Assembly: GCA_008638375.1 (NCBI GenBank)
Contig: CM018031.1
Location: forward strand, 59,193,188 to 59,257,187
Reading direction: 5' to 3'
DNA from: Nyssa sinensis
Lineage: Eukaryota > Streptophyta > Magnoliopsida > Cornales > Nyssaceae
DNA: 64,000 bases
Shown: piece after piece, positions 402-30,698 of the stretch
How positions within the stretch are numbered: the first letter of the stretch is position 1
Layout: the number at the start of each line of letters is the position of its first letter
The notes under the pieces: model-generated
The model's input: the letters and a program-made list of their open reading frames with translations, nothing else
What the model was told of the DNA's origin: nothing
Database searches by the model: none
Position numbers and translations under genes: made by a program

Positions 402-3400
402 CATTGTTTTTTGAAGCAATTTTATGGATCCGTTACCAAAACAGATTACATGACACTGCGAATTGGTTTCATTATGGTAAGTATCTAGTATTAAGGTTTG
501 TGTTCCCCTTTAGATCTATGTTTCACTGTTTTTATTGTCACTACTTATTAGGTGTTTGTGTTAATATTGAACTTATTTTTACTGCAGACACATTGCAGGG
601 CAAACCCAAAGTTTAATTTTCACAAGTACATGATACGTGCCCTGGAAGATGACTTTAAGAAAGTCGTTGGTATAAGGTAAGTGAAGGTGGTGTTACCTGC
701 ATAATTCTAAGGCTTCATATGACTTCTTCTGTGTGCTCACTGGGCATGTTTCCATAAACTTTAAAGCTGAGTTTTTTTCTTTTCTCCCTTTGATTTTACT
801 TGATTCATGTTTAATATCTGATTTTTGTTGGTTGCAGTTGGTATTTGTGGGTATTTGTGGTCATCTTCTTGTTGCTGAATGTTAATGGTATGCTACTTCA
901 TTGAGTTATTTAACTTATGACATCACTTTAGATCCTAATGCCAAATGTTTTCTAGTGGTTTTATTCTTTTCAAGTGGTTTACTCAATTGATTGTGGTTCT
1001 TTACTCCAAAGGGGTTTAGACACTTTCTTTTCCTTGGGTGGAATGTCAAGTTAAAGGGGAAGAAGTTAAGCTTTACAATTCCTAGCCACAAGTTACTGTA
1101 TGCAAGAGTAGGTTTCCTTCCAATCATTTGGATTTGTTGTCACAAATCACATCCTACTTTAACTATCTACCTAGGACAATATTATTCTCTGTCAAATTGT
1201 TATATGGCCGGTTCTTCTCTCACTAATTCAACCATCACCTTTTGGCCTCCCCCTTGTTTTTTGTCCTCGTACTTCCTTTAACTTGAGTTTCATTGCTCAT
1301 TTTTAGAGCATCTCTTGGTCTTTGTTGCAAAATTCAAATGACCAACAATTTCAGGTGACATTCTTGTCTGCGCCCTATTGCCTTCATCTCCAAGTTAGGG
1401 CTGCAAAATTAATTGAATTGCTTGTGGGCAACTCAAGTTTGGTCCAATTCCTGACCATTCGAGCTTGCTTATTGAATCTATCAAGTTGAGCTTGAGGCTT
1501 GAGGCATAGTTTTGAGTTTATTTGTGTGATACTCCTGTCCCACATCGGTTGCGTGGGAGTATCATGATTGGTATATAAGACACTACAAGTCTTACTACTA
1601 ACAACTTGGGCTTAAGCTTTTGAGTCGTAATGTTGTGGGCTCTTCAGGTTGTTGGAATAGTGGGCTTGGGGCGTTACAGTCTGGCCAACCAGCCGAGCTC
1701 GAACAACCTTTGGTTTAGCGTGGATATGCTCATGACTTGTGAGCATAGAAAAGTTTAGACATAAGAGTATGCAATCCTATGTTAGAAACTGTTTAGTTGA
1801 TGCTCACAAAAAGTAAATGATGAAGTAACCCACAATTAGATGACATGCCAATATATTCATCTCTTTTGATTAATGTCAAAACATCAAAATGCCTCAGGCC
1901 TTGGATATCACCTCCTGGTGACGCTATAGCTCCTCTAGTTAAATCCTGCAAAAGCTGCTGCAATCTTTGGTTGATTGTGACAAAACAAACTTTTTCTTAA
2001 AGCATCATGTACTTGACCAACATTTCCTTATAGTTTATATACAATGACCACATTTATCTTTATATTATAATTTAATGCATTCGGTAAGCCAAGCTCAAAC
2101 AAGGTTGAAGAAATGCAAATCAAGTTTGGCTCACAAGATGGATATTAATGAACTGAAATTGAATAGCCGAGTGTTCAGATTGCCTGGGGTTGTTTCCAAC
2201 CTACTCCAAATCTTCAACTTTGCATTTGGCATCATTTAGTATGATCTATATCCATCAAAATGAAATTTTCCTTCAATTTCATTGTCCCCAATAACATTTC
2301 CTTGCTTCATTAATTCAACTGATTTTGTGGATCATGTCCCCTTCGATTCTCCATTGGAAATGGATCAAGATAGTGAGAGTTTTACCTTTGCTGCTTAACC
2401 ATCTCAAAATCCTTTTTCAACTATACGCATTCTGTTGCCTGTGCACATCTTCATTATGTCCTATAGTTTTGTTAATTATTGTTTTAACCAGTATGAATTG
2501 TGGATCACAGGACACTCAAAAAGCACATCTCCATTTCACTTTCACTGCTTAGCTTTATGGTTTATATTCTCTTTGGCTGCTTCCTCTTTATGGGTGATTA
2601 AATGTGACTGCAAATTATGCTTTGCAAAATATCTGTCTCGATGTCATGATTCATTATATTTATGTTGTGACTATCTAGCATTCTGTACAACAAAATTTTA
2701 AATTTTTTCATTTAATTTCATGGGTATATGTCAGTCATACTAAAAACTCTTCCCCATGTTTATCCTGCGTATCCATTTTCTCATTTTTTTCCCCTAATAA
2801 TATCTCCATATTCGTGGTTGATAGAATCAACATAACGAAAATGGTTATTCTTTTAAGTTTCCGTTGTTCATCAATCTGAGTTATATTTATTATCAGATAT
2901 TATACCCACATATTTTTGGTTCTCCTTTCCATAAAACCATTATTTTTGGTGTTTTTTTTTTTGGGGTGAAAAAATCATATATATTTTCAAATTTTGTGGT
3001 GAAAAGCTATTCCCTCACTATGGAGCACTGAAATTTGATTGTTTCAGATGTTTCACTCCTGACATATGTGCCAGTTAATATGGGATTAATTGTGTTTGTT
3101 TCCAACCTAAGTGATATTTATTTTATATATAAAAAAATTTAATTCGCCCCCTCTATAACACTCATGGGAAGTGTGTTAAATATTAATCCTGCACTCTTTA
3201 CTTCTCCCATGCTCAAGCAAGTATCCAAACTCTATTCCTCTATATATCAAAAAAAAGAACTGTAAATGTGGTGGTGTTTATGATATTTATTATCATCTTT
3301 TCCAAGTTGTGACATTTGATCGTTGTTTTTGGTTTTGGCAACTTATATCAAGATCGTTACATAAGAACTTATGTATTTTCATTTTGCAGGATGGCATACG

Positions 3401-6400
3401 TATTTCTGGATAGCTTTCATTCCTTTCGTCGTGAGTTAGTCTCCTAGTATTATCTTAATGTGCATGATCATACATTTCTGCTCATCATGGTTGCCTGCTT
3501 AACATTTCATTTAGCTTCTGAAAAATCATAAATTTATACACGCATTTTTTATAATCATCCAGTTGTTTGATATTTGGGTGAACTTATACAATGTGCCTTT
3601 TTAATTTCAAGTTTCAACACCTTAAGATATGCAGTATGTGTTTTACATTTGCAAAGAGCATGCATTCTACCTCTTTCTTGTAATCTTCCGGTGCTAAGCT
3701 GTTTTGTCATGGGATAATGTGTAACATGCTTGTGGTGCTGTACTCGTTTCATATGATGTGTTGCAGTAAATGTTTGTTTGCACTTCCATCTGTGGATATC
3801 ATCTGTTACGGAGTTGATTTATTGCATCAAGAACTTAGGATCCATCGTTGATTTGAGTTTCCATTATCATGAAGCCTGTTAATCAAGGATTTTAATCAGC
3901 TTTTGCATCAATGTATCAATGTAAAGTCTAAGAACAGCTTAAAACATAAGCATGATAGATAAGAGCATTCAAAGCATAGGCTAATACAGAGTAATGGGAT
4001 GAGGAAATGGTCCATAATCAACATATTAATTCTATCAAAACTAGATCACTATGTTTTTGCCAACAACTAGTGGAAGAACAATTTGTTTTTTCATAATTAA
4101 ATTTAAAAAAGAAAAAAAAAAAACAAATGAAACTTTTTGAGAATGTCAAAATTTTCTATCCATGAATGTTTGATTAGAAAAATTTTCCTATTACCTTTAG
4201 AAACAGCTTCCCTAAGGAGAAAATTAGAAATAACTAGGAATTCAGCACATTTTTCTTTTGTACCAATGTTTCCTTGCTTTTTTAGCTATATATTAGATCT
4301 CAAGCTTGATACAAGCAGTTTCTTCCATCTCTAATATGAAGACATTTGGTTCATTAATCTCTGTACTTGAATTTAGTTCTGTGTTTGGTATTATTTCTCT
4401 TTGGGTGCTAACGAGGAGGTTTCATGGCCTCTTTGAGCACTTGATTAGTCCTGAACATGCAGTCCCCTCACCCCAGATGCATCAGGCAATTACTGGGATA
4501 AAAGAATGATCTAACGTAAGACATCCATTCTTCTCTATGAAGAACCAGAAAGGAAGCATAGATTATTATTGTTTTTCATAATAAATTTTTTGTAGCTTTG
4601 CACTGTTTAAACATGTTAGATTAAAGATATGATATGTTGAAACAGATGAAGATATGATATGTTGAAACAGATGAAGACCGCTGTCGATAGAAAGAAATAG
4701 GACTCATAGTGTTGGATTTATCTTTGTATTTAATCAACTCATTTTTGCATTTATTAGAATAGTGGTTTAATTTACTTGGAGCACCTTCTGTGCCTTGAAG
4801 GCAACTGGGGAATAAACTAATGGGCTGGTAACGACACTATTTACCTCAAGGAGGACATTTACTTGGGATATGAAAGTTTCCTGCAATTAAAAATGAACCC
4901 CTCTGAAAGTAGATTAACGTGCTGAAGGAAGGATCTAAAGAAGAATTTAACCTTAGGCCTTAACTTCTAATCATTACTTTTTATTTATCTCCTAAAATGG
5001 AAACTTTTTATATTTTACTTTTCTTGAAGCAAAATCGTTACAATGCACTTCAGAATTACTTTCAGATGTTCACAAGCATTGTCTTGTGACTCATCTCAGC
5101 CTCTTCGGTTAATAATCAGTCTTATGGCTAGAAGATTCTGACTTCTGACGTGGAAAGCCATAAAAGGGCTAATGAATATCCATTTATGAAAGTGTTATTT
5201 ATGCATGGGGTTGATTCCAAGTGCATGTGTTATAATATGTTTGTGATCTCTCATTTAAAGAAAATCCATGTGCAAATTCTGTAATTTGCATTCTTTGCAA
5301 TTCATTAAGGATGCATGTGTAAACATACATTTATACAGTGGCGGATGTAGGGGGACCCCCCCCCCCCCCCCCCAAACAGCCACCCCATGACACTTTTTGG
5401 ATTCAGCATTGCATGTCTATCGGCACGGACACCTCAGTTCAATGTGTCAGAGAGCCTTGTGCAATACAAAACTTATTACATTTATATGAGTGATTGTTTT
5501 ATCCATTGTATTCTTATGCTTTACTTATTTAATTTTCAGCTTCTACTTGCTGTGGGAACTAAGCTGGAGCATGTAATATCCCAATTGGCTCATGAGGTTG
5601 CTGAGAAACATGTTGCAATAGAAGGCGACTTGGTAGTTCAACCTTCAGATGATCACTTTTGGTTCCATCGACCCCGCATTGTCCTTTTCTTAATACATTT
5701 TATACTCTTCCAAAATGCTTTTGAGATAGCATTTTTCTTCTGGATATGGGTAAGCTGATTTGTAGAGGCTTGTTGTCATGGTGTCATCTAATAGAAAACT
5801 AGTTGTGGACGGACATTGACCTTGTATGCCTCAATCACTTACAGGTTCAATACGGATTTGACTCCTGCATAATGGGACAGGTCCGTTACATTGTCCCAAG
5901 GCTAATTATAGGGTAAGAACCATTGCTCTTTTTTCTCCTCGGATGTTTTTTTTCTCTTCTTTTCTTCCCTGATTTTGTCTTTCCCAATTCTTTCAGTATA
6001 TGTTATATTGGGATTGTGATGTGATCTGTTACAAGTATAATAAATTTTTTTATTTTTGCCTCTTAGGGTAATCATTCAGGTACTCTGCAGTTATAGCACC
6101 CTACCACTGTATGCCATTGTGACACAGGTGAGGTCATGTGTAGTTTTAACATAAATTTGAACTAGTCTTTGACCGAAGAATATTACCACTAATTATTTTA
6201 TTTTATTTTAATTTTATTTTTTGGGGACAATGAAATGAAGATGGGAACTTTTTTCAAAAAAGCAATATTTGATGAGCATGTGCAAGTGGGTCTTATTGGA
6301 TGGGCTCAGAAGGCCAGGATGAAGAAGGGGTTGAAGGGGGCAACCAATGGCTCTGGTCAAGGGAGTTCAACTGATGGTTCTACTGTGAGAGTGGGAGTGG

Positions 6401-6474: not shown

Positions 6475-7728
6475 GCAGTACTGTGTATTTCATGATATGA
6501 TTATAATGTATAATAGCCATATGAGGAATATTTTAACATGTGCTTGTGAATGTTTTGTGAATTTAAAAGCCAAGATATATAATTATTAGCCAGTTTTGAA
6601 TATTATTCTTCCTTGTGATATTCACCTGTAAAAACCGATATTTATTATGATTTACTGAATATATATATATATATCTATATATAGCTTTGTTTACTCGGTA
6701 TATGACTCGTGTTGCAACTGTTTTATCATGGAGCTGTGCCCATCCGTCATTTCCCTCCTGCCTGGAAAATGTAGAAGGGATGATAAAAGTGTTGGCATAG
6801 TATCTAAAGAGACAATTTTATATAAAAAATATATAAAGTCTTTCACCTCAATAACTTCATATGGGAAGGAAATGAAAAGGAATGATGTGGTAGTCATTGT
6901 TTCTTCATTAAATATGAAACTTGAGTGGCCTCTGACAAGACCCTGAATGGTAAAAATGGAGTGTTGAGGTTGACAGATCTTTCATACATTCTTCTGATAG
7001 CTTTTATAATAAAGTTGAAGGCCCTTTCCATTATCCGTACTTAAAAATTTCACATCAATCTTTACCATTATCAACCATCTAAATTTCTATTCTTTTCATT
7101 TTTATTTGTCTGAATCTAATCATTCTTTTTCCTATTCAATCCTAAACCTATCCATAAAGTTTGAATTGAAACTTGTAAACCCTAGATATCTGACATAGTT
7201 ATCACTAGTGGCCCATCATAATGATGAAACCGACAGTGAAACCCATCCCCATCTGGGCCTGGGGCTTCTTGGGTTTCATGCTCCTGATGGTCTCATAAGA
7301 CTTCTTTCCAGGTAGTCCTGTCAGATAAAATTTGGGCCTTCTGTTGTGTAATAAAATTGGGGAAATGTATGTCCATTGGACTCATTTGCGCTGATAAAAC
7401 CATGGAAATGATCAGTGACATGCTGGGTTAAAATGGCCTTATCAGTGTACCAGTTCCCTTCTTCAATTCTTATGCCTTCCTCTTGCAAATGATGGAAGTG
7501 TGGGAGAATTTAGTAATTTTATTTCCATAATTAACTCTTAGTTTTTGTAACTAGAAAGTCACGAGTTTGAATAGTGAAAACCATTCTTCTGTTCGCGAGA
7601 ATAAAGTTACATATATCTAATAAGCCGGTGACAAATAATGAATATATATATATATATATTTTGTTTGCATAAGTTGTTCATATGTTTCAATCCAATAGAA
7701 GTTTTAAACAACTTCAAAAATTTCATTA
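6475..7728. other. MLO 3' flank / intergenic, no gene seen
   Basis: AT-rich sequence with short TA tracts near 6660-6680 and 7643-7660. It contains the presumed MLO 3' UTR. No exon, RNA gene or clear terminal inverted repeat was recognised. It ends at the TTA target site of the first Harbinger element. Confidence 0.6.
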
Positions 7729-8249
7729 GATCAACTCCAAGGGGGAGTGGCATCAAGGGTGGCAACCTCATAACTGCTTATAACTACCAAAATGCCACCC
7801 CAAATTTAAAATTTTTCACACCAACGAGGGTGGCATCAAGGATTGGAAAATGGCAGGAATGGTCTTGAAATAACAATTTTTCAAACTCTGGAGAGAGAAA
7901 GAGAGAGGTTGCAAAGAGCCATTCTGGCTTTTCAGATTCTACTGTTCCACTCTCAACGGCACTATTCAACCAAACAATTCTATAAATACAGAGATTTTGA
8001 AAGAGAAAACTTACCAAAGGCCGGAAAAGCTTGCTGTGAAAATCGTTGTAAGTTTCTGCTCCCTGCTCATGATTTTTCTTCAAACCTTGTGGTTGGTGAT
8101 GGCAGATCTGGAGAAGGAGGCACAGAGAGAGGGAAAGGGGAAGGAGGCGCAGAAGGGGAAGGGGAAGGAGGAAGAGGCGCAGGCGTCGAGGGGAAGGGGA
8201 AGAAATCCAGAGGCGCGGGGGGGGGGGAAAGAAATCCAGGGAGACTCTC

Positions 8250-9656
8250 TGTAACGGCCCGCATCCACTCGGCACAATATTGTCCGCTTTGGGCCTCGGC
8301 CCGCACGGCTTTAAAACGCGTTGTACCAAGGAGATGTGCAACCATCCATATAAGTCCTTCACCTTTCCCTTCCCCAGGCGATGTGGGATCCATTACTCTC
8401 TCCCCTCAAGGGCGTGCAGCCATCCACTCCCACTCAGGAGAGCCCGCGTCCCCGCGACGCACCTCTGGCTGGGGTCCAGCTCTGATACCATCTGTAACGG
8501 CCCGCATCCACTCGGCACAATATTGTCCGCTTTGGGCGTCGGCCCGCACGGCTTTAAAACGAGTTGTACCAAGGAGATGTGCAACCATCCATATAAGTCC
8601 TTCACCTTTCCCTTCCCCAGGCGATGTGGGATCCATTACTCTCTCCCCTCAAGGGCGTGCAGCCATCCACTCCCACTCAGGAGAGCCCGCGTCCCCGCGG
8701 CGCACCTCTGGCTGGGGTCCAGCTCTGATACCATCTGTAATGATTGAGCAAAACTATCAGAGCTGGACCCCAGCCAGAGGTGCGCCGCGGGGACGCGGGC
8801 TCTCCTGAGTGGGAGTGGATGGCTGCACGCCCTTGAGGGGAGAGAGTAATGGATCCCACATCGCCTGGGGAAGGGAAAGGTGAAGGACTTATATGGATGG
8901 TTGCACATCTCCTTGGTACAACGCGTTTTAAAGCCGTGCGGGCCGAGGCCCAAAGCGGACAATATTGTGCCGAGTGGATGCGGGCCGTTACAGATGGTAT
9001 CAGAGCTGGACCCCAGCCAGAGGTGCGCCGCGGGGACGCGGGCTCTCCTGAGTGGGAGTGGATGGCTGCACGCCCTTGAGGGGAGAGAGTAATGGATCCC
9101 ACATCGCCTGGGGAAGGGAAAGGTGAAGGACTTATATGGATGGTTGCACATCTCCTTGGTACAACGCGTTTTAAAGCCGTGCGGGCCGAGGCCCAAAGCG
9201 GACAATATTGTGCCGAGTGGATGCGGGCCGTTACAGATGATGGCTGCACGCCCTTGAGGGGAGAGAGTAATGGATCCCACATCGCTTGGGGAAGGGAAAG
9301 GTGAAGGACTTATATGGATGGTTGCACATCTCCTTGGTACAACGCGTTTTAAAGCCGTGCGGGCCGAGGCCCAAAGCGGACAATATTGTGCCGAGTGGAT
9401 GCAGGCCGTTACAGATGGTATCAGAGCTGGACCCCAGCCAGAGGTGCGCCGCGGGGACGCGGGCTCTCCTTAGTGGGAGTGGATGGCTGCACGCCCTTGA
9501 GGGGAGAGAGTAATGGATCCCACATCGCCTGGGGAAGGGAAAGGTGAAGGACTTATATGGATGGTTGCACATCTCCTTGGTACAACGCGTTTTAAAGCCA
9601 TGCGGGCCGAGGCCCAAAGCGGACAATATTGTGCCTAGTGGATGCGGGCCGTTACA
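8250..9656. mobile_element. Head-to-head concatemer of a minimal TRIM/SMART LTR retroelement
   Basis: Six 143-bp LTRs: reverse at 8250-8392 and 8493-8635; forward at 8850-8992, 9093-9235, 9271-9413 and 9514-9656. A forward LTR starts TGGATCCCACATCGCC and ends GGGCCGTTACA. LTRs alternate with a 100-bp internal segment that begins GATGGTATCAGAGC, the initiator-Met-tRNA primer-binding site. It ends in a polypurine tract (GAGGGGAGAGAG). One internal segment is 5'-truncated at the inversion (8755-8849) and one is cut to 35 bp (9236-9270). There is no coding capacity. Each LTR differs from the majority sequence by two bases at most; those at 8250, 8850 and 9093 appear identical. The outer ends are inverted (TGTAACGG and CCGTTACA), and CTCTC is duplicated outside the whole block (8245-8249 and 9657-9661). 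Confidence 0.93.
8853..8896 (+). promoter_or_regulatory. USE + TATA promoter module in the 143-bp SMART LTR
   Basis: ATCCCACATCG (8853-8863) is a perfect plant snRNA USE. TATATGG at 8890-8896 follows after 26 bp. The same module recurs at the equivalent place in the other LTRs of the array; the copy starting at 9271 keeps the USE. A T4 run (8926-8929) follows 36 bp after the TATA start. Confidence 0.55.
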
Positions 9657-11218
9657 CTCTCTTTGTGCCTCCTTTGCCTATATGTATATAATTGATTTTA
9701 ATTTAAAATAAATGTTTTTATTTTAGTTAATTGTTAGAATTTAAATTTAAATTTTAAATTAAATTAATTTTTGTAATTTAAATTGAGTGTTTTAATTTTA
9801 GTTTATTTATTTATTTATATATTTTTGTTAATTTAGGATTAATTTATTTATTTAGCTAATTTTTATAATTGAAGAAGTTTTTTCTATTTTAGTTAATTGT
9901 TATTTAGAATTTAAATTTATTTTTTAATTAAATTAATTTTTGTAATTTAAATTGAATGTTTTAATTTTAGTTTATTTATTTTTGTTAATTTAGGGTGAAT
10001 TTATTTATTTAGCTAATTTTTTAATTTATAATTTTTTTTAATTAAGGGTGATTTTATTTATTTTTTAATTGATTATTTTATGCTCATTCTTTCAATTGAT
10101 TATAATTTTTTTTTTTTGTAGATGGATTTGCAATTTGACAGTTCTTTCACTGATTTGCTTATGAACAACACAGATTTGAAATTTGAAACTTTTATTATAA
10201 AAATATATCCGTTAAATTGCGATCGTTATGAAAACTATACCCGTTAAGTTTAATTATATTTTTTAATAAAAAATATTAAAATATTAAAATGGCACCCTAT
10301 TTTGGCACCTACCATTGGAGCAGATTTATAATTCAGGGATGCTAAAACACTGTTCAAGATTGCAAATGGGTGATTTGGCACCCCAAAATGGCAACTCTCT
10401 TTGAAGTTGCTTTTAGTAGTTTAAGCTAATTGGACTCTAAGAGCAACTCCAACGAGGAGTTGCATCAGGGGTGGCAAACGGGTAACCACCTGTAACTGCC
10501 AAAATGTCACCCCAAATTCTACTGTTTTGGACTTCAACGGAGGTGGCATCAAGGATTGGAAAATGGCAGCAATGGTCTTGCGGTGCCAATTTTCCAAACC
10601 CTGGAGAGAGAAAGGGAGGGGTTGCAAAGAGCCGTTCTACCATTTTCAGATCATACTGTTCACTGAACGGCTCTTTGCAACGGCTATATTCAATCCAAAA
10701 AATTTTATATATACAGAGAGATTTACAAAAAGATTTACAGAGATTTTGAAAGAAAAAACTTACCAAGAGAGATTTACAGAGAGATTTTCAGAGATTTGCC
10801 GTGAAAATCGTAAGTTCCTTAGCTCCGTGCTCTTAATTTTTTTTCAAATCTTGTGATTGTGATGGCAGATCTGAAGAATTTATTTACAGAGGGAGGGAAA
10901 GGGAAAGGAGGCGCAGAGACGAAGGGGAAGGAGGAGGAGGCGCAGAGGGGAAGGGGGAAGAACGGCACTGAGAGACAGAGAAGCCGTTCTCTGTTTTGTT
11001 TCCTTCATCCTTCTTAGTTCATATATATATATATAATATGAACTCTATTTCCTTCATATATATATATAATTTATTTATATTTATATTTATATGTTTTACA
11101 TTAGTTTCATATTTTAGATTTAAATTAAATTTTTAAATTGAATTAATTTTTGTAATTTAATAAATTAAATGTTTTAATTTTAGCTTATTTATTTATGTAT
11201 ATATTTTTGTTAATTTAG

Positions 11219-11930
11219 GGTGAATTTATTTATTTAGCTAGTTTTTATAATGGAAGAATTTTTTTCTATTTTAGTTAATTGTTATTTACAATTTAAAATA
11301 GTTCTTAAATTAATTTAATTTGTGTAATTTAAATTGAATGTTTTAATTTTAGTTTATTTATTTATTGTTTTTTGTTAAATTAGGGTGAATTTATTTATTT
11401 AGCTAGTTTTATAATTGAAGAATTTTTTTCTATTTTAGTTAATTGTTATTTACAATTTAAAATAGTTCTTAAATTAATTTAATTTGTGTAATTTAAATTG
11501 AATGTTTTAATTTTAGTTTATTTATTTATTATTTTTTGTTAAATTAGGTGAATTTATTTATTTAGCTAGTTTTTATAATTGAAGAATTTTTTTCTATTTT
11601 AGTTAATTGTTATTTACAATTTAAAATAGTTCTTAAATTAATTTAATTTGTGTAATTTAAATTGAATGTTTTAATTTTAGTTTATTTATTTATTATTTTT
11701 TGTTAAATTAGGGTGAATTTATTTATTTAGCTTGTTTTTATAATTGAAATTTTTTTTTCTATTTTAGTTAATTGTTATTTACAATTTAAAATAGTTCTTA
11801 AATTAATTTAATTTGTGTAATTTAAATTGAATGTTTTAATTTTAGTTTATTTATTTATTTTTGTTAATTTAGGGTGAATTTATTTATTTAGCTAATTTTT
11901 GTAATTGATTATTTTATGCTCATTCTTTAA
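11219..11930 (+). repeat. About 164-bp AT-rich tandem repeats in the Harbinger 5' region
   Basis: The phrase GTGAATTTATTTATTTAGCT recurs near 11219, 11385, 11548, 11713 and 11874, spaced about 161-166 bp. Between the phrases lie near-identical blocks (TTTTTCTATTTTAGTTAATT, AAATTGAATGTTTTAATTTT). Fewer copies occur in the sibling elements at 9690-10100 and 15130-15400, so copy number varies between elements. Confidence 0.85.
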
Positions 11931-11956
11931 ATTGATTATAACTCATTTTTTTGTAA

Positions 11957-12982
11957 ATGGATTCGCAATTTGACGGTTCTTTCACTGATTTGCTTATGAA
12001 CGATACCGATTTATATGATGATGCTATGCAGACCAATCCCTCAGTATTTGCGCCAGTACAAAATGAAGCCGCTCCAAGAGTGAGAAAATCGCAAAGGACA
12101 AAGAACTTCTCTCAAGAAGAAGATAAATTAATTGTGTCTGCGTGGCTTAACAATAGTAAAGATGCAATTACTGGGACTGAACAACAAGGTGGTGCTTTCT
12201 GGCATAGAATATTGAAATACTTTGAACTTTATGGAGGCAATCAAGAAGAGCGTTCACAAGCTTCTATTAAAAGCCGTTGGACTAATATAAATGCAAAATG
12301 CGCCAAATTTGTTGGTTTTTATAGTCAAATTGAAAGACTGCGACAAAGTGGACACACCGAGCAAAACTATGTAATGATTGAGCTTTTTTAGATAGACACT
12401 ACTATGATTTGATATTTGAACTATTGACTGAATGATTTCATATGTTTTTCAGGTTGATGAAGCAAAAGAAATGTTTGTTAAGATCACTGGAAGACCATTT
12501 CAATACGAGTATTGTTGGAATATATTGAAAATGGAGCGGAAATTAACTGATAATCTCACCAGCAATAAAAGAGCAAAAACTCATTCAACTGATAGTCTTG
12601 CTGAATCAAATCATGTTGAATCTTGCTATTCAATTCCATATTTAGGGGATGACACTGAACCCTCGTCCACTCCCAACCTTGATAGGCCATTGGGCAGAAA
12701 GGCTTCGAAGAAATAACTTAAAAACAAGGAGAAGCAAACCAGTTTTGAAGCATCACTAGATCATCACCACTGGAATCAAAGAATGGAAGTGGAACGACAA
12801 AAAGTTGCTCAAAAGGAGATAGCATTGGAGCAACATCATAGACAGTTGAAGAAAGGCAGAATGAATGGCAAAAAGAAATGAAAATCATGGAAACTGACAC
12901 TACTGGCATGGACCTAATTTCTGCATCACATTGGAATAACCTTAAGATAGAGATTATGAACAAGCGGGGTTTTAATTTTTAG
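11957..12982 (+). pseudogene. PIF/Harbinger ORF1 (Myb/SANT-like DNA-binding protein), disrupted
   Basis: Exon 11957-12370 is spliced to 12453 onward (acceptor TTTTTCAG), in frame: NY|VDEAKEMF. The N-terminus is MDSQFDGSFTDLLMNDTDLY. A Myb/SANT-like trihelix region follows (NFSQEEDKLIVSAWLNNSKD, then GAFWHRILKYFE and SIKSRWTNINAK). This is the accessory protein that partners the transposase in this superfamily. A stop at 12714-12716 ends the frame after GRKASKK. Family-like sequence continues in the same frame past it (LKNKEKQTSFEASLDHHHWN). After a one-base shift near 12845 it runs to FNF-stop at 12982 (ERQNEWQKEMKIMETDTTGM). Full length would be about 320 residues, so one nonsense and one frameshift make it a pseudogene, though a truncated 226-aa product is possible. 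Confidence 0.85.
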
Positions 12983-13089
12983 TCGTTATTTATTATGTTG
13001 CTATTATTTTTTAATTTTTAGTCATTATTGAATGAGTTTGCTATTATTTATAAAAAACTATGTATTAAGTTTGATTGCTATGAAAGTAC

Positions 13090-13255
13090 TTGTGAAATTG
13101 AAAATACAACTTGAAATTGAAATTAGAATTAAAAATACAACTTGAAATTGAAATTGGAATTAAAAATACAACTTGAAATTGAAATTGAAATTGAAAATAC
13201 AACTTGAAATTGAAATTGGAATTGAAAATTCCACTTTGAAATTGAAATTGAGAAA
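13090..13255 (+). repeat. Minisatellite between the converging ORF1 and transposase
   Basis: About five imperfect copies of a unit near 30 bp built on ACAACTTGAAATTGAAATT, ending 2 bp before the transposase stop. It adds an artificial Asn/Phe-rich reading on the minus strand. Confidence 0.85.
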
Positions 13256-13256
13256 A

Positions 13257-14522
13257 TTATTCTTCGTCATGTCGTTCCCACAAATGCTCGATAAGATCTG
13301 ACTGCAGTTGAGAATGAGTTGCACTGTCCCTGATCTGACAATGGGTTTGCATGAAGTCTTCCAATTCTGGTGTATACACATGCGACACTTCTACAGGCGG
13401 ATTTGCATCACTTCCATCAGAGTCATTGTTATCCTCAATGACCATATTATGCATTATTATGCACGCTTTCATAATATTTGCAAGTGTTTCTTCATCCCAA
13501 AAGCGTGTTGGTCCACGCACAATTGCAAAACGGACTTGAAGTACTCCAAATGCCCGCTCTACATCTTTTCTTGCCGACTCTTGTGCTTTAGCAAAATGTT
13601 TTTTTTTCAGACCTTGTGGATAGGGAATTGTTTTTACAAATGTCGACCAATTAGGATAAATACCATCGGCTAGATAATATCCCATTGTATACTCATGGCC
13701 ATTAATTGTATAGTTTACTGGAGGAGCATGACCATTTGCTAATAATGCAAAAACAGGGGACCTATCTAGAACATTTATGTCATTCAGCGAACTAGGAAGC
13801 CCAAAGAATGCATGCCATATCCAAAGATCTTGAGAAGCCACAGCTTCCAAAATGATTGTTGGTTCGTGACAATGACCAGTATACATACCTTGCCATGCGG
13901 TCGGACAATTTTTTCACTTCCAATGCATGCAATCAATACTCCCTAACATGCCAGAAAAACCACGTTGTTCCCCCGTCTGTAACAATCGAGCAATATCCAC
14001 AGAATTTGGTGACCTCAGGTAATGGTCGCCAAACATTGCAATAATAGCTTTCACAAACCTTCTCAGACTCTGTATGACAGTGCTTTCTCCAATTCTGATG
14101 TATTCATCCACAGAATATGCCGGTGTTCCGTAAGCAAGAATTCTATAAGCAGCTGTTATCTTTTGAAGGGATGAAAAACCGAGAACTCCAACAGCATCTG
14201 TTGTTTGGATGAAGTATGGATCGTGTTGTTCAACCTCATTTACAATTCGGAGAAAAAGAGTACGACTCATTCGGAACCTCCTTCGAAAAAAACCTTCATA
14301 TACACAAGGGGTAACAAAATAGTCACGGTAGAGTCTTTCGTGACCTTCAACTCTACCACGATTAACTATTCTGTGGCCTGGAACGGAACCACGATACCTT
14401 CTTATCCGTCCCTGACTAGACCCTTCTGACCTTCTGGTTGCAGCACACAACATATCCAAATCATCATTATCTTCTTCCTCAATATTGAAGATCTCTCCTA
14501 AAATATTAGGATAGCGATTCAT
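13257..14522 (-). pseudogene. PIF/Harbinger DDE transposase (421 codons) with one in-frame TGA
   Basis: Reading from 14522 down to 13257 gives one continuous frame interrupted only by TGA at 13914-13916. The block reads GSIDCMHWK-stop-KNCPTAWQGMYTGH; relatives have Trp (TGG) there, so a single G-to-A change explains the stop. The plant Harbinger blocks (DDE_Tnp_4 / HARBI1 family) are present: the first catalytic Asp in GSIDCMHWK, then EAVASQDLWIWHAFFGLPSS, NDINVLDRS, the second Asp in MGYYLADGIYPNWSTFVKTI, and the last acidic block RKDVERAFGVLQVRFAIVRG. The C-terminus CIIMHNMVIEDN is intact. It converges on ORF1. Without the stop it would be full length, so loss of function looks recent. Confidence 0.93.
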
Positions 14523-14997
14523 TCTGATTGATGAATGAAAATATGAAAGGATAAATAGTCAAAGAGAAAGGAGATATTGAATTTATAAAGAGAATGTAAT
14601 ATAGATGGATGAAAACATGAGAAAAATGATCATATTTATAGACTAATTTTACTTTTTTGAATTTTTATTTTGGCGGTTAAATTTTCAAATTTGAATTTCA
14701 ACAGTTGAATTTTGAAATTTGAAATTTGAATTTCGGCAGACAAAATTTGAAATTTAAAATTTGAATCTGAAATTCGAAATTTGAAATTTAAAATTTTGAC
14801 TATAAAAATATATCCGTTAAATTGCGATCGTTATGTTTAATTATATTTTTTAATAAAAAATATTAAAATATTGAAATGGCACCTCATTTTAGCACCTGCC
14901 ATTGGAGCAGATTTATAATTCAGGATGTCAAAACACTGTTCAATGGTGTAAATGGGTGATTTGTCACCCCAAAATGCAAATCCCCCTTGGAGTTGCC

Positions 14998-15429
14998 ATT
15001 CCAATATTTTTTATTAAAAAATATAATTAAACTTAACAGTTATATTTGAACGGGTATAGTTTTCATAACGATCGTAATTTAACGGATATATTTCTATAGT
15101 CAAAATTTCAAATTTCAAATTTCAAATTCAAATAAATTCACCCTAAATTAACAAAAATATATAAATAAATAAATAAGCTAAAATTAAAGCATTCAATTAA
15201 AATTACAAAAATTAAATTAATTTAAATTCTAAATAACAATTAACTAAAATAGAAAAAAATTCTTCAATTATAAAAATTAGCTAAATATTCATATTCACCC
15301 TAAATTAACAAAAATATATAAATAAATAAATAAGCTAAAATTAAAACATTCAATTTAAATTACAAAAATTTAATTTAAAATCTAAAATAATTAACTAATG
15401 TAAAACATTTATTTTAAATGGGTATCTCT

Positions 15430-15489
<60 letters not shown>

Positions 15490-16025
15490 CCAAACAGGAA
15501 GGGAACAGCTCTGTATTTCTTTCCCCCCTCATGCGCCCATTCTTCCCCTTCCCTCTGCGCCTCCTCCTCCTTCCCGTTTCTCTCTGCGCTTCCTTCCCCT
15601 TTCCCTCCCTCTGTGTCTCCTTCTTCAGATCTGTCATCATCAACCACAAGGTTTGAAGAAAAATCAGGAGCAAAGAAACTTACAAAGATTTCACGGCAAG
15701 CGATTTTTCAGCCTTTGATAAGTTTTTTCTTTCAAAATCTCATTGTCTCTCTGTATTTATAAAATTTTTTGGTTGAATTTTTTTTGTTGAATAAAGCCGT
15801 TAAGAGAACAGTAGAACCTGAAAATGGTAGAACGGCTCTATGCAACCTCTCCTTTTCTCTCTCCAGAGGTTGGAAAATTGTAACCCCAAGAGCATTGCAA
15901 TCATTTTTCAATCCTTGATGCCACTCCCGTTAGAGTGAGAATTTTTGAATTTGGAGTGACATCTTGACAGTTATTAACAATTATTAGATTGTCGCTCCTG
16001 ATGCCACTTTCCCTTAGAGTTGCTC
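14998..16025 (-). mobile_element. Reverse-oriented partial PIF/Harbinger copy fused to the tail of the main element
   Basis: Read on the minus strand from 16025 it repeats the left-end structure: GAGCAACTCTAA, the GGTTGCATAGAGCCGTTC block, the GA-rich leader (15540-15620) and two AT-rich repeat units. It then jumps to the 3' region (the motif CGTTAAAT/ATTTAACG near 15076) and stops at 14998 beside the main element's right end. No ORF1 or transposase remains; it is a second, independent deletion derivative of the same family. Confidence 0.8.
15429..15488 (+). repeat. (TA)n(GA)n microsatellite
   Basis: About 26 bp of alternating TA runs directly into about 34 bp of alternating GA, within the reverse Harbinger copy. 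Confidence 0.95.
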
Positions 16026-17173
16026 TGAAAGGTTAAGGATAGGTTTGGAAAGGAGTGTCACTATCGTTGGCAGAGCAAACCATTCATCCAGTTTGTCTAT
16101 TTCTTCTTGATCAGACATCAATGCAATCCCTGTACTTCATCCTGTTTTGCTTTGATTGATCTTGATGTTCTTCAGCCATCTGAACCCCATTTTCTTCCTG
16201 CTGTGTTTAAAAATTTTCCTATCATCCTCATGCTCAGTAGCCTCTGTTATGATGTCTTGCGCCTTCACGCTCAAGGTAAATCTTATTTTTGTTAAAAAAT
16301 ATAATAACAAAATTACATTCTTTTTAATAACTTAAACTTTTAAATGAATTGATAACATAAACTTTTAAATGAGTTGGTAATATGATATCAGAGGAAGTAA
16401 ATCGTTTTGAATTCAAATTTCACTGTCATCTTAATAATATGAATTGATGCATGTGTAAGCTCGAACTAATCACATGTGAGAGGACAAAGTTTGCACGTTG
16501 GCAATTTTTAAATTTGTCTCAAATTTTGCATGTTAATCCCATTCATTATTATTATTTTTCGTCCTTCAAAAAATTTCTTTTATTGTCAAATAATGGCATT
16601 TTTATTTTAAAAAGATATATATTCATCCTAAACTTAAAAAAAAAAAGGGTTTACACAAAACCAAATTTGTTAGAAAGCTCAACATAGTTAAATCAAGTTA
16701 TTAATGTATTATTTTTTAACTGTTTAATATTTTATTTTATATAATATCATTGGTCTAATTATTGGTTTATAACTGTTTTATAAAATTATTTTTTAATTTT
16801 AAAAATATACGTTAATCACACACTATCGACATGAGAAATCAAAATGAGTTCATTAAAAAAGTAAAAAAAACAAAAAAAGAAAATTAATAAATTTAAAACT
16901 TTAACTAAATAAACAAAAAGTCTCCAAACAACTCACACAAAGAAATTATAATAGATTTGGTAGCAATACTGCCAAATGTCTATAAATTCTTGAATTTGAA
17001 AAATCAGTGGCATATATTCTCTGAATCGTGTGTGGATGACAAAGCTTCTTTCTGCATTTTCTCTTTGTTAAGCTTTACTGCAACTCTCTCATAGGTGGGG
17101 CGAAAAATGTATGACTGATTGATTATAAAGAGAGAAAATCATTGTAGACAAGTGATTCAATCTTTCTCTCAAA
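16026..17173. other. NdhV upstream region, no gene seen
   Basis: AT-rich sequence with no recognisable exon or transposon end. The last 100 bp hold TATTATAAAGAG near 17122, about 50 bp before the start codon. This is a possible TATA box, though it leaves only a short leader. Confidence 0.5.
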
Positions 17174-21026: not shown

Positions 21027-21063
<37 letters not shown>

Positions 21064-24000: not shown

Positions 24001-25373
24001 TATCACACATAAACAGATATGTAGAACTAAGTCCATGGGGATGACAGCTTAATTCTTAGATCCATGGACTTCTACTTTGTCCAGTTGGTGGTCTGAAAAT
24101 AGATAATAATGGCTGTAATTCATCAAATGTTTTTCTTTATTGAGTCTCTCTCTGCTTTGCCTAGATGTTGGCCTGGAAGTGGAAAGTTCACTTTATAATG
24201 GGTATATTTTAGGATACTTTTTCTACTCTTCCTAGTTTGTGGCCTAAAAGTAAACAAAGTTCTCAACTAACTGCTCAAGATCATTACTTTGTTTTTGTGG
24301 ATCAATAAATAGAAATATATAAAAGGCGCGTGAGGGGGGTGAACCCATATACAAGGGACTGGCTACAAGATTAAGGCCTCAAGTCCCTCAAAAAATCAAC
24401 CAGCTCATTTACATGACTAGGATAGGCCTCTTTGACCCAAAAAAACAAAAGCCTCACAAAACAATCTTTAAGCACAAAAGGAGGTTTATCAGCCCCCTCA
24501 AAAATACGGTTATTTCTCTCCTTCCATTAGCACCATAATAAACACAGCGGGGCCATTCTCCAAGCTTTTAGAGACAGACCCCCTAGCTTGTTCCTTTTCC
24601 AGCCCAATAATAAATCTTTAACTGCAGCTGGCAGGACCCCTCAAGATCATTAATTTAGATTTGTTTATTTTATCTTGCATGGCTACTTGGCTAGGATCAT
24701 TAGATCAATTTTATCCTTACGCAGAATATAAATTAGAAGGTCAATGAAACCGATTTATTACACACACAGAATATAAATTAGAAGGTCAATGGAACCGATT
24801 TATTACAAACGATTACCACTAGACCAAAAAGTCTGAGACAAGCATATCATAACAAATGGTAGGGGGAAAAATCAGGCCATACAGCCTAGTAGCACTTGCA
24901 TATGTCAAAAGCACTTTTTCCTTCATGCTGCAGAGATTGGTGAAGTGAAGTGCTTTGTTACATAAGCTACACATGGAATGTCTTACAGAGAATTACAAAA
25001 AAAAAAAAGATCAATCAAGTTTCCATCAATTTATAATTAGCTTATAAACATACCAAGTTGAAGATCAGCTGCATACAGTAAACATACCAAGGTCATGTAC
25101 ATGTACTAAACGAACTGAAACTCAAATTCCCTAGAGGGCAAGAGACTTACCCTGAAAATAATAATGTAATCTACCAGGTGGAATATGTGCATTGGACACA
25201 AGAACAATTCTCCAACCTCTCCAAGTTTACACAAAATACTAGAGTGACACACAATATCAATTGCCTTGTATGCCTCAAAATCTTTCAACAATACTTTATA
25301 TTCATAATTTTTTAGACAAGTATTATGTAACTCAATACATTGAAGGACTCCTCTTTAGCTCTTATGCATCCAC

Positions 25374-25420
<47 letters not shown>

Positions 25421-28400
25421 CATATACGGATAAGTAAAGTCTAATTGTAATAACAAAGTGCCCGAGGGGGGCGCACCCAATTTACAAGAAAAGACCGTAT
25501 AATTAAAGCCTAGAGACCCCAAAAAATCAAGTAAAGGAATTACATACAGGATAGGGCTCCTTGGCCTAAAAATAAAGTATACGCAAAAAACCTAGCTTTG
25601 AAACAAAAGGGGGGACTAACGCTCCCCGTCAAAAATCTCCTATTTTACTCCCTCCAAAATACACCAAATTAAGCATAAAGGAGCCATCTTCCAAATAATC
25701 CATTGTCGCCATCTAAGAAGCAACTACTTAAGCAAAGCAGGTATAACCCAATGATGCCCAAATAAGGAAAGAATCATACTCCATGCATCTCTTGCAACCG
25801 AGTAATGGAGAAGAAGATAATACGCCCACTCTAAATCTCCTTTACACATAAGACACCTACCAGCCAAATGGAAGTCCCTTCTTTGCAAAATTGTCCATAG
25901 TGAGAATAGCATTCCAAGAAGCCGACAAAAAAAAAAAAAACTTAGAACTTGAGAATCCAAGATCAACTTCCAAGGGAAATGAACTCCATCTCTGCCACCA
26001 ATTCCTTGTAGAAGGACCGGATCAAGAACTCCTTGAGAGTTTTTTAAAATCCACACCAAGGAATCCCGTCTATCGACAATCACCCTATACTTGTTCCCTC
26101 AAAAGGCTACCCACTTCCACCAGCTCCCAATCATGCAAATTTCTCCTCAAAATTGGACTCCATACCACCTATCCACCCACTAAAGCGCAATAATCAGCCA
26201 CATAAACATCCTTAGACCAAGTTGTATAAATGAGGAAATCTCAACTTAAGGCGCCTATCCATACTATATAGATCATCCCAAAACTTTACCCTTGACCCAT
26301 CCCCACCTCAAAACAAAGGCACCTCCTAAAATCAGCCCTCCCTTTCCCCACAATCCACACCCTATGGCCTCCACCCTTTCCTTAGAAAACCAACCCCCAT
26401 CCTCAACTCCATATTTGGAAGACACAACCTCCTTCCAAAGAAGTCAATCTTTTGTCCCCGAACCTCCACAACCACTTGTTAACAAAACTTTGTTGACCCC
26501 TTCACAAATGGGGATCTTTGCCTTATTCCACCCCACTAAATAAATCTTCTTCTCACCCTCCATGCCATCCCAAAGAAAGTCCCTTTAGAGCTTCTCCAAT
26601 TTTTTCTTTACCGAGACTGGGATATGAAACAAAGGCATTAGTAGGCAAATTGTCTAAGGTACTCTTGATCAACATAAGCCATCCCCCTTTAGATACTCGC
26701 CACTAAAATCTCTCAACCACTATGTCTCACACTGGACTAGTTCTAGGGTAACCTCCTAAACCAAGCCATCTCTTCTATTCCTGTAACCTCCCTCATAGGA
26801 ATAATCTCAATCTTACCCAAATTGACTCAAAGTCACAAAACAACCTCAACACAAAGAAGGACTGAACGAAAAAACCTCAATTGCCTAGCTTTCGTGTGAT
26901 ACTCCGGTCCCACATCGGATGGGTGGAAGTAGCATGATTGGTATATAAGATACCATAAGTCTTACTACTAACAACTTGGGCTTAACTTTTTCAGCTATAA
27001 TGTTGTGGGCTCTTTAGGTTGTTGGGACCAATGTTACCTAGAATGTGGATCGTTACGATACGGGGAACGGCAATGGCAACGTAGGTCATTATTTGTTATA
27101 GAACATGGTACATTAGGAGTAGGCTTCTTTGGATCGCTTTATTGAAACGAAATACATTTATTTGGAACGTGATATGCTTTTTTATTATATTTGTAATAAT
27201 ATTGGTATTTATATATATACACCAAAACGATTTCAACGAATCCAAATCATTATAAAATAAAATTACAATGATGTGTGCGTATTTTGTATGATTTTTTCTG
27301 GACTTTTGATATTTTAGATTGGAATACTAAATCTTGTGTTCCAAATCGCTAATGATCCATGTTTTGAATCTTATGATCCCAATTCACAATTCGCTAAGGG
27401 AGGAGCGAGTTATAGTAATCATGGTTGGGACAGTGGACTTGGGGCATTACATTTGTGGTATCAAAGTCAGTTCCCAGAAGATAGAGGCCCCTAAAGTATC
27501 TATTTAATGGGCAGCAGGGAGATCGAGATCCACCCCACGATGACATGTGGTCCTTTGGGGGGGGGGGGAGAATGTGATACTCTTGTCCCACATCAGATGG
27601 ATGGGAGTAGTATGATTGGTATATAAGACGCCACAAATCTTACTACTAACAACTTGAGCTTAAACTTTTGAGTAATAATGTTGCGGGCTGTTCAAGTTGT
27701 TAGGACAGTGGACTTGAGGCATTACATTTCGCCTCACAAAGGACAAGAGTGTCATCAACAAATAATAGGTGAGAGACTCCAACCCTACTATCATTGCTAC
27801 CCTAGACAACAAACCCCTTCAATAGATGACAAATAAGAAAAGGGATAATGGGTGCTCTTGTCAAAGCCCCCTGCAAATATGAAAGAAGCCGGCTGGAGTG
27901 TCATTCACCATAAATAGAAAGGGTAATCGAGGAGATGCACACCTTCATCCAAACCTTCCATTTCACCCCAAATCCCATTTATTTCATCATAAACAAGACA
28001 AAGTCTGAATTGACATGGTCATAAGCTTTCTCTATACCCAACTTGCAAACTAAGCCCTTTTCCTTCTTCCTTCTTGCATCAATACACTCATTTGCAATTA
28101 AAACCACAACCAAGATTTGCCTGCCCCCTACAAAAGCATTCTGGCTACTAGAGATGACACTACCCAACATTCTCCTCAACCTCATTAAGAGAACTTTCAC
28201 CATCAATTTATAGACACTTCCCACAAGGCCAATAGAGCAAAAGTCTCCAATATCCTCCACACCTTCCTTCTTTGGAATTAAAGTTATGAAAGATGTATTC
28301 AAACTTTTTCAAATGACCCATATTGGAAAAAAAAAACTGAAAACAACCAATATATCCTCCCTAACAATCTACCAACAACACTTGACAAGGCCATGGTAAA

Positions 28401-30698
28401 CCCATCGAGTCCCGGGGCTTATCCCCATCACAGGACCTTAGAGCACGGATAATTTCATCCTCCTCAAGGGGCTTTTCCAACATATCAGCTTCCTCCCCAT
28501 ATATCAATTATTACATGCAACAAATTGGAAATGTAATTCAAATACAAAGACATATAATAGGCAGATAAACCATCAAGTCATCACTTTCTTTTGTGCAATT
28601 ATAGGCAATAGTGGAAAGGGGGATTTGTTTTTTCACCTACATTTGTAGGTGATCTCATAAAATATTTAGGGTTGGCCTCCCCAAATATTTGTTATTGACT
28701 AAAGGGGTGAAACATGATATCATCCAATTTTTTTATTAGTAAAAGATTGTGTATATATATTGAAGGCACTCAAGAGGGGTGAGCCCATAATTAAAAAAGA
28801 AAAAACAGAAAAAGAAAAGTTACAAAAATTAAAGCCTAAGATCCTCCAAAAACTCTATAAAAGTATCTAATTACAAGCGATTTGCCTCTCTAGCCCAAAA
28901 GAAAAGTAAATACAAAAAATTGTCTTTAAAACAACAAGAAAATAGTTCAATCCCATCAAATTTCTTTCCCTCCTTGAGCACTATGAAAGGCAAAGGGGAG
29001 CCATCCTCCAAGTATGCCTCACCTCCTTCCTAACTCGGCTTCACTTCCAACTCAAAAACACCTCCTCTGTGTGCGCGCGTGTGTGTGTGTGTGTGTATTA
29101 CTTTTGAAACAAAAAGAAAGTAGAGGAATAGATACAGAACAACAGTCCTTAGGATTGTGGTTTCCATTCTAGTTTGTGGGGTTGGCTTTGGGGGAGGCCA
29201 AACTCTATTTGATTTTCAAGAATTTTGAGAGTGAATCTTAATTAAAGGACATAGAAGTGTCCACAAATCCAATTACTATTATATAAGAAACATGGGGCTC
29301 TAAAGTTGCTTTCTTCAATCAGATGAGTTTTTTCAATCCCGACTCTACATGTTGCACAACTTCTAACTTTCCTGAGCCCACTTCTTTGTCATCAGCCGAG
29401 ATAGTGATTAGCTGGTCGTCGATATCGAACTTTACCCTTTGGTGGTCGCCCTACGTGATGGGCACTTCAAAAGGCGAAACTCTCATCGAAAAAGCTCATC
29501 GATCCAAATGAATCAGTCTTCTGGTATCTCTTCGCTCCCTGCCCCAAAACTGTTCTGATTTATGTTCAAAATAAGATTACAGAAATAGTTCCTTTGGTTG
29601 CTGATCTAGAGTTCTAGGCCCCATTGCTACATTTAGTTAAAGAGGCTTCAATAATTTTTCATTGCCTCGTCAAATTCATCAATAATTTGTTGTTTTCATG
29701 CAATATCATATTGTTCATGTGGTTAATTCTTTGGTTGTTTAGCTTTGTGTTGATTCTTTATTAATTTAATTTTTTGTGTTGTTGTTATGTTGTTTTTAGT
29801 GAAACCTTTATAGTACTAATGCTTATGGACATTGAACTTTTGTTTTTATTTTTATAGAATATTTATTTTCATCAAAATGGTTCGAACTTTTTAGTCACTT
29901 TTTCAAACGTATATACTTTGGGCCCCTAGGCTTAGGAAGATTTTGCAAGTTTATGCTATTGTTGGAATGTCTCACATCGTCCATTTATGGCCCCTCTGTG
30001 TGGTTTATAAGGCTTTAGTTCCCCTCTACTTAATACTTTGAATTTTAAGGAGTTGAATGGGCTAGGCCTTCCAAGTGGTATCGGAGCCAGATAGGGCTAG
30101 TCTTCCTGGCATGCCGAGTGTCTGGCTGCTGTGGTCTGGAGGGTGTGTTGGAATGTCCCACATCGCCCATTTATGGCCCCTCTGTGTGGTCTATATGGCT
30201 TTAGTGCCCCTCTACTTAATCCCTGTGTTTTAAGGAGTTGAATGGGCTGGCCTTACAAGAGCTATAAATCCAGATGACCTATAGATGCATTTGATGAAGC
30301 AACAAAATATGATTCAGCAATGTCAGGTTCAGATTGTTGAGTGCAAATGGAATATTTGGATTAGGTGCATCATGCATGTAATAGAAAGTTAATCAAACAA
30401 TCATCAAAACGCTGGAACTAAACTCGACTTTATCTATATATGTGTATGTATATATGGACATGTGCAAGTTCAGGAGAACCTTGACTAATAAGAGATTATT
30501 AGTTACTTACCTCCTCCTGATTTGCGCCTGCTGAGAGAACGATTCCTGCACAGAACCAAATCATGGCCCAACTCAAAATCAATCAATCAACCGATTATCC
30601 AAAATATAGAGAGAATAATACCTCTGGTTGGGCGGAGCATAGCGCTTGACGGTGGTAATGTTGGGCGTGGATGATGAATCGGTAGGGTTTTCCAGCAT
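20893..30698 (-). CDS. Conserved plant protein of unknown function (174 aa, six exons)
   Basis: Minus-strand exons in coding order: 30622-30698, 30511-30545, 23661-23852, 22767-22817, 21097-21161, 20893-20995 plus two bases to 20997. All are bounded by GT-AG and keep one frame. The protein starts MLENPTDSSSTPNITTVKRY and then APPNQRNRSLSRRKSGGERF, a basic Ser/Arg stretch that could act in nuclear import or RNA/protein binding. The middle is hydrophilic. Then come NPRPGLIALHGCCNSEAYQL, a likely folded core MNDRWAAAMNSYNN, ERPVMYLGTGASAWGNARLP, and the C-terminus SQMDFLSELRRAMRNANASS. I recall similar proteins annotated only as hypothetical in plants and do not assign a function. No signal peptide or membrane helix. 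Intron 2 is 6.7 kb, swollen by antisense LINEs and two TRIMs. The start is the first ATG of the open exon, 1.36 kb from the divergent RPA-interacting gene. Confidence 0.85.
21032..21060 (+). repeat. (GA)n microsatellite
   Basis: Uninterrupted alternating GA, about 29 bp, in intron 5 of the unknown gene, 35 bp from the last exon. Confidence 0.95.
24300..24645 (-). mobile_element. 5'-truncated antisense LINE 3' end
   Basis: The stretch GGGGGGTGAACCCATATACA, the run of short Pro/Ser-rich codons and the phrase TTAGCACCATAATAAACACA resemble the start of the antisense LINE at 25428. Read on the minus strand it is the zinc-knuckle end and 3' UTR of a plant L1-type LINE. No RT remains. Confidence 0.6.
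24723..24806 (+). repeat. 45-bp tandem duplication
   Basis: AGAATATAAATTAGAAGGTC and the bases after it recur 45 bp later (24723 and 24768) with one substitution. Confidence 0.9.
25376..25426 (+). repeat. (TA)n(CA)n(TA)n microsatellite
   Basis: Alternating TA, then about eleven CA units, then TATACATATAC, just outside the 3' end of the antisense LINE. Confidence 0.9.
26907..26949 (+). promoter_or_regulatory. USE + TATA module in the TRIM 5' LTR
   Basis: GTCCCACATCG at 26907-26917, then 24 bp, then TATATAAG at 26942-26949. The 3' LTR copy has a change at the last base of the USE (CATCA), with the TATA kept. Confidence 0.55.
27029..27423. mobile_element. 395-bp hAT-like MITE inserted in the TRIM 5' LTR
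   Basis: The insertion splits the LTR between GTTGGGAC (27021-27028) and a second exact copy of GTTGGGAC (27424-27431). An 8-bp target duplication is the hAT hallmark. Its ends, CAATGTTACC and the complement of GTAATCATG, are only loosely inverted. No coding. Confidence 0.75.
28727..29060 (-). mobile_element. Third antisense LINE 3'-end fragment
   Basis: It begins with the same kind of phrase as the other LINE ends (AAGAGGGGTGAGCCCATAAT) and continues with the complement of the LINE zinc-region text. It abuts the 5' part of the LINE at 25428-28726, so one LINE may have landed in another. A GT microsatellite follows at 29069-29097. Confidence 0.6.
29960..30257 (+). mobile_element. Short TRIM with about 112-bp LTRs (298 bp total)
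   Basis: Direct repeats 29960-30073 and 30146-30257 both start TGTTGGAATGT and end GGCCTT(C/A)CA. Between them, 72 bp start at 30076 with TGGTATCGGAGCC, an initiator-Met-type primer-binding site, and end GGTCTGGAGGGTG, a weak polypurine tract. GCTAT precedes the left LTR and occurs again at 30261-30265, three bases beyond the right LTR. The target duplication is therefore possible but not clean. No coding capacity. Confidence 0.8.
30155..30198 (+). promoter_or_regulatory. USE + TATA module in the short TRIM 3' LTR
   Basis: GTCCCACATCG at 30155-30165, then 26 bp, then TATATGG at 30192-30198. The 5' LTR has one mismatch (GTCTCACATCG). A T4 run lies at 30228-30231. Confidence 0.55.

Follow-up and report, generated by a model that had tools for sequence, protein, structure and literature searches.

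The 64-kb stretch of plant DNA analysed here (the window) contains three families of short retroelements with long terminal repeats (LTRs) of 154, 143 and 112-114 bp. These LTRs carry the upstream sequence element (USE) of plant small nuclear RNA (snRNA) genes, followed at a fixed distance of 26 bp by a TATA box. The host is the asterid eudicot Nyssa sinensis (tupelo) or a species very close to it; a 582-amino acid frame on the minus strand (59218-60963) matches F0562_002177 of N. sinensis with 100% identity over 93% of the query. With total lengths of 437 bp (minus an insert), 386 bp and 298 bp, respectively, the elements fall within the size of terminal-repeat retrotransposons in miniature (TRIMs), taken here as less than 540 bp with LTRs of 100-250 bp and an internal domain of 100-300 bp. 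Target site duplications (TSDs) were found for two of them (TTTCG and CTCTC).

Short-LTR elements and the Copia control

The TRIM of the 154-bp family (26895-27726, plus strand) has the TSD TTTCG on both sides and spans 832 bp, including a 395-bp insert (27029-27423) with an 8-bp duplication, GTTGGGAC, which splits the 5' LTR into 26895-27028 and 27432-27451. The preliminary description had listed 26895 and 27573 as separate copies; they are the two LTRs of this single element. Its 5' LTR contains an exact USE at 26907-26917 with TATAAG at +26, and is followed by a sequence resembling a primer-binding site (PBS), TGGTATCAAAGTC (27456-27468), an internal domain of 121 bp and a purine tract (27557-27572) ahead of the 3' LTR (27573-27726). 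The 3' LTR contains a USE with a mismatched last base (27585-27595), TATAAG at +26 and AATAAT at 27674. TG...CA ends, PBS, polypurine tract and a TSD of 4-6 bp are thus all present in this element. Furthermore, repeat searches identified a solo LTR of the same family (TGTGAT...GTTACA) on the plus strand at 1525-1678, at which no TSD was seen; its USE, GTCCCACATCG (1537-1547), is an exact match, and TATATAAG lies at 1572-1579, with TATAAG beginning 26 bp after the USE. The 395-bp insert has the ends CAATGTTACC and, reversed, CATGATTAC, and is perhaps, at a guess, a hAT-like miniature inverted-repeat transposable element.

Six LTRs of the 143-bp family form an array at 8250-9656, with two copies on the minus strand (8250-8392, 8493-8635) and four on the plus strand (8850-8992, 9093-9235, 9271-9413, 9514-9656). 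All six contain the USE and TATATG at +26, as in ATCCCACATCG (8853-8863, plus strand) with TATATG at 8890. The array also contains a PBS-like sequence on the plus strand, TGGTATCAGAGCT (8995-9007), a purine run, and CTCTC at both outer ends. The unit of 386 bp has an internal domain of 100 bp; one array unit has only about 35 bp of internal sequence, which is under the TRIM range. Both outer ends of the array are LTR 3' ends, and its 483-bp inverted arms are separated by 24 bp; simple unequal crossing-over would not be expected to yield such a head-to-head arrangement, in which the TSDs adjoin two U5 ends. Stop-free frames span the GC-rich array, and an 83-amino acid piece of one frame of the 143-bp TRIM, the only frame searched, had no relatives as a protein query. 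Seven Rfam matches below cut-off in 8200-9700 (E up to 1), comprising six microRNA precursors and a fungal signal recognition particle RNA, lie over the inverted repeat and were rejected as probable hairpin effects. The array is itself enclosed by inverted arms (7728-7932 and 15822-16026, 79% complementary), between which lie Plant_tran/DDE_Tnp_4 transposase frames (13260-14558, minus strand) and, with a score below cut-off, a Myb-like frame (11957-12388); 7728-16026 is a PIF/Harbinger-like element.

The 112-bp family is represented by one element of 298 bp on the plus strand. Its 5' LTR (29960-30073) contains a USE with one mismatch (29969-29979) and TATAAG at 30006 (+26), and its 3' LTR (30146-30257) contains an exact USE (30155-30165) and TATATG at 30192 (+26). 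TG...CA ends and a PBS-like sequence, TGGTATCGGAGCC (30076-30088), are present; no matching TSD (GCTAT and AGAGC) and no purine run of at least 9 bases were found, and the internal domain of 72 bp is under the TRIM range.

Repeat searches of the window recovered a single large LTR element, a Copia-type element on the plus strand (46924-51402) with LTRs at 46924-47098 and 51224-51402 and a TATA box at 47036, which serves as one control and not as a distribution. It encodes a gag_pre-integrs domain (PF13976) above cut-off and an rve domain (PF00665) below cut-off. Its LTRs lack the USE, the best match having five mismatches both in 46924-47098 and in 51226-51402. One copy of a 673-bp inverted duplicate (49887-50557 and 62783-63453, 93% identical) lies within this element.

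USE occurrence and distance to the TATA box

The 11-mer RTCCCACATCG occurs nine times in exact form on both strands of the window, at 1537, 8853, 9096, 9274, 9517, 26907 and 30155 on the plus strand and at 8379-8389 and 8622-8632 on the minus strand, compared to 0.01 ± 0.10 expected from 100 dinucleotide shuffles. Two further sites with one mismatch (27585 and 29969) also lie within LTR copies, so that all eleven sites are inside LTRs of the 154-, 143- and 112-bp families. None of the nine additional two-mismatch sites in the window lies inside these LTRs; one of them (27338) falls within the insert that splits the 154-bp LTR. The preliminary description of an exact 11-mer near the LTR starts of three families is therefore borne out, as is its identification with the snRNA-gene motif: the LTR 11-mer equals the plant USE consensus, published as RTCCCACATCG (PMC4448504), letter for letter. 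The nine exact matches stem from three families and hence represent three independent observations at most, which is the one point in favour of chance or of mere sharing of repeat copies. Given the expectation of 0.01 and the recurrence in three families, near the LTR start and with identical spacing, this explanation is highly improbable.

In all eleven LTR copies, and thus in each of the three families, TATAWR begins exactly 26 bp past the 11-mer. Gaps of 24, 24, 26 and 26 bp had been proposed; the 154-bp family reads TATATAAG with overlapping TATAs, to which gaps of 24 and 26 bp both apply, and the value of 24 refers to the first of these. The Pol III-type (RNA polymerase III) spacing stands, with 26 bp to the same box throughout, and random variation across copies, for which the spacing was checked, was not observed. 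In dinucleotide shuffles of the sequence behind the USE (one LTR per family), TATAWR occurred at 23-28 bp in 0.78% (154), 0.44% (143) and 1.22% (112) of cases; the wider interval of 15-60 bp contained one in 5.5%, 2.9% and 9.7%, respectively. Arithmetic from these shuffles gives a chance of about 0.003 that all three families fall at 23-28 bp, granting each a TATAWR at 15-60 bp. Among USE-TATAWA pairs from outside the window, used solely for the spread of gaps (120 from viral contigs and 2 from bacterial metagenome-assembled genomes), 17 of 122 fell at 23-28 bp compared to 23.6 under a flat distribution, with no peak. The viral-contig pattern, USE-N{15,45}-TATAWA, matched at least 120 stretches. 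Nothing identifiable as a plant TRIM emerged when collections of viral and prokaryotic sequences were scanned, with at least 120 viral stretches left unclassified, and two stricter patterns had no matches in these collections.

The 26-bp spacer is identical at 7-10 of 26 positions between families and at 21-24 of 26 within families. The distance from the USE to the LTR start differs between the 154-bp (12 bp), 143-bp (3 bp) and 112-bp (9 bp) families. The position of the USE is thus tied to the TATA box and not to the LTR end, which favours a promoter over an end signal for integrase. That the 11-mer is an LTR-end motif recognized by integrase, or a signal for another mobility protein, would fit its proximity to the LTR start, from which it is 3 to 12 bp away in every family, and a conserved 12-bp LTR motif for which protein binding is suggested has been described in the maize TRIM Wukong and its proposed partner Sanzang (PMC4528315). 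This alternative is nevertheless improbable in view of the fixed distance to TATA and the identity with the published USE.

USE and TATA in these LTRs are a genuine promoter-like pair. Both features of a Pol III-type promoter, the USE (nine exact and two one-mismatch copies) and a TATA box about 25 bp downstream (26 bp), are present. In the Arabidopsis gene AtU6-26, the gap between USE and TATA is also 26 bp, with transcription starting about 29 bases after the TATA box, and the Pol II-class (RNA polymerase II) snRNA spacing is about 34 bp. In the Pol III-transcribed U3 gene of barley, the USE (TCCCACCTCG there) and TATA are reportedly 25 bp apart, and TATA precedes the start by 23 bp, a geometry said to conform to Pol III promoters (PMC6181210). 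For dicots, USE and TATA are described as required and sufficient, with their spacing as a major determinant for Pol III recognition (PMC11961915).

Candidate polymerase and the T runs

The LTR pair probably represents a promoter of the type bound by the SNAP complex (SNAPc), of which SNAP50 is also known as SRD2. That it constitutes a minimal promoter of the snRNA type, spaced as for Pol III, from which Pol III drives the predicted transcription, is a proposal we put forward at slightly less than even probability, and the claim that productive transcription is by Pol III ranges from doubtful to about the same level. Under this proposal, each LTR would hold, within its first ~50 bp, a complete minimal snRNA-type promoter of USE, 26-bp spacer and TATA box. 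Binding of SNAPc to the USE would recruit Pol III, given the short spacing, and the first base of the RNA would be about 29-31 bases past the TATA box of the 5' LTR. Pol III would then read through a weak run of four T (T4) in the 5' LTR, transcribe the PBS together with the short internal domain, and terminate at the T4 of the 3' LTR. The resulting repeat (R) of 9-19 bases at both ends could serve the jump of reverse transcription, as reportedly does the 18-bp repeat of Cassandra, and the enzymes would presumably be supplied by a helper LTR element.

A run of four or more T is present in each family, as the preliminary description had it. Its distance of 36-46 bp after TATA is corrected to 36-37 bases (143 and 112) or 43-44 bases (154) past TATAWR. 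For a start 29-31 bases past TATAWR, the end of the T run falls 9-12 (143 and 112) or 17-19 (154) bases further downstream. The 143-bp unit and the 112-bp element have a single T run of at least four per LTR and none internally, and the internal domain of the 154-bp TRIM also lacks such runs (those of the foreign insert excluded). The T4 runs had been considered a difficulty, because Pol III transcripts would be very short. Cassandra RNA, however, reportedly has 18-bp duplications at its ends (PMC10886601). The RNA of an LTR element has to begin within the 5' LTR and end slightly beyond the corresponding position of the 3' LTR, as is reported for Cassandra. A T4 in this place is therefore not fatal to Pol III but would be needed in an LTR transcribed by it, and the difficulty is weaker than stated. 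Yet T4 is no positive evidence either: its placement was dropped as support for Pol III since the 5' LTR of the Copia element has a T4 at TATA+36 without a USE. T4 neither supports nor refutes Pol III.

Alternatively, the USE and SNAPc may be used but transcription carried out by Pol II, with the TATA box in the role it has in ordinary LTRs and with the USE as a proximal activator. TATA boxes are normal in Pol II LTRs, the USE-less Copia 5' LTR combines a TATA box with an equally distant T4, and Pol II would be untroubled by T4 runs; furthermore, canonical TRIMs are named TRIMp2, i.e. Pol II-dependent, by Kojima (PMC10886601). The 26-bp gap, in contrast, is of the Pol III class, and no plant snRNA 3' box, which is of Pol II type, was found in the four stretches tested. 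Neither AATAAA nor the near variants tested were identified in the 112- and 143-bp elements, whereas the 154-bp 3' LTR does have AATAAT. We consider transcription by Pol II possible but unlikely.

Several observations weigh against the proposed Pol III-driven promoter. A T run at the observed place also arises in 1.3-29% of shuffles (0.013 to 0.293 per sequence in six LTR stretches), in addition to its occurrence in the Copia 5' LTR. Located at about +5 to +18 of the predicted transcript, the T4 would be expected to halt much of the Pol III within the 5' LTR. Two of the nine two-mismatch sites (22551 and 37144), where no LTR was noticed, are also followed by a bare TATA after 24 or 26 bp, which cautions against weighting TATA alone. 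The comparison comprises only three families, which may not be independent, and one large-element control.

Origin of the families and comparison with known systems

The preliminary description had interpreted the promoter as convergently acquired by unrelated families. Three short-LTR families whose bodies do not align significantly with each other do share a perfect USE and TATA at Pol III spacing; convergence is one possible origin of this pair. All LTRs end in TTACA, with the exception of the 5' copy of the 112-bp element (TTCCA), and TGGTATC, which we take to be the initiator-tRNA-Met PBS, is located 2-4 bases after a 5' LTR in each of the three families. A common origin so old that only functional parts have been kept fits these shared features as well as convergence does. 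The three families would accordingly represent one old TRIM lineage that retained the USE, TATA spacing, TTACA end and PBS, to which the match of the 154- and 143-bp LTR ends over GGGNCGTTACA (eleven bases with one difference) also points. However, the LTR bodies behind the USE align no better than shuffles in five comparisons (P = 0.17, 0.38, 0.61, 0.22 and 0.82). Moreover, the Copia element has the same TGGTATC PBS type, so that the PBS says little about ancestry. We regard descent from one lineage as evenly balanced between true and false. It concerns the origin of the families and would fit transcription by Pol II as well as by Pol III.

An snRNA-type promoter in TRIMs, if true, would bear on the mode of transcription of elements with LTRs this short, and would complicate USE-based searches for plant small RNA genes. 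No link between the USE and LTR elements appears in the titles and abstract beginnings of the literature matches listed, which is no proof of novelty. The promoters of plant U6, U3 and telomerase RNA genes likewise combine USE and TATA about 25 bp apart. Unlike the elements described here, these genes are not mobile; in the TRIMs the promoter is found at both ends of a retroelement, with T4 close behind. The maize TRIM Wukong resembles the 143-bp family in forming multi-LTR arrays, and also has a conserved 12-bp LTR motif; its LTRs are usually in one orientation, whereas the array described here has both (PMC4528315). The 143-bp family had previously been labelled as SMART (FRetro129 of grasses), which is also an element with very short LTRs containing a TATA box. 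The SMART report describes a TATA box in the LTR, but neither a polyadenylation nor a termination sequence. The label is rejected on the basis of the LTR ends, which read TGGATC...GTTACA in the 143-bp family and TGTT...AACA in SMART; SMART measures 292 bp and the present unit 386 bp.

TRIMs with a Pol III promoter have been named TRIMp3, with Cassandra described as the sole lineage validated (Kojima 2024, PMC10886601). Helenus and Ajax have been proposed as further TRIMp3, and 7SL was speculated on; the main text of that paper has no occurrence of snRNA (PMC10886601). Like the elements described here, Helenus and Ajax are TRIMs proposed to use Pol III; they differ in being tRNA- and 5S-derived (PMC10886601). 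No tRNA and no Rfam match at curated cut-offs were identified in the present TRIMs, the region 26880-30300 had no Rfam match up to E = 1, and a regular-expression search of four stretches found no A or B box. As 5S- or tRNA-derived sequence was sought and not found, the present elements are not classified as members of TRIMp3, but may work alike. Tentatively, and with more doubt than confidence, they may represent a third type of LTR retroelement driven by Pol III, which has an external USE/TATA promoter of SNAPc type in place of a captured 5S or tRNA gene and an R repeat bounded by the start and T4, and which either originated in several TRIM families of plants or was retained by them. Cassandra is likewise a TRIM with the promoter of a small RNA gene in its LTR, and its short R ends of 18 bp compare to the 9-19 nt predicted here; it carries 5S-derived sequence, whereas the promoter of the present TRIMs is of the external USE/TATA type.
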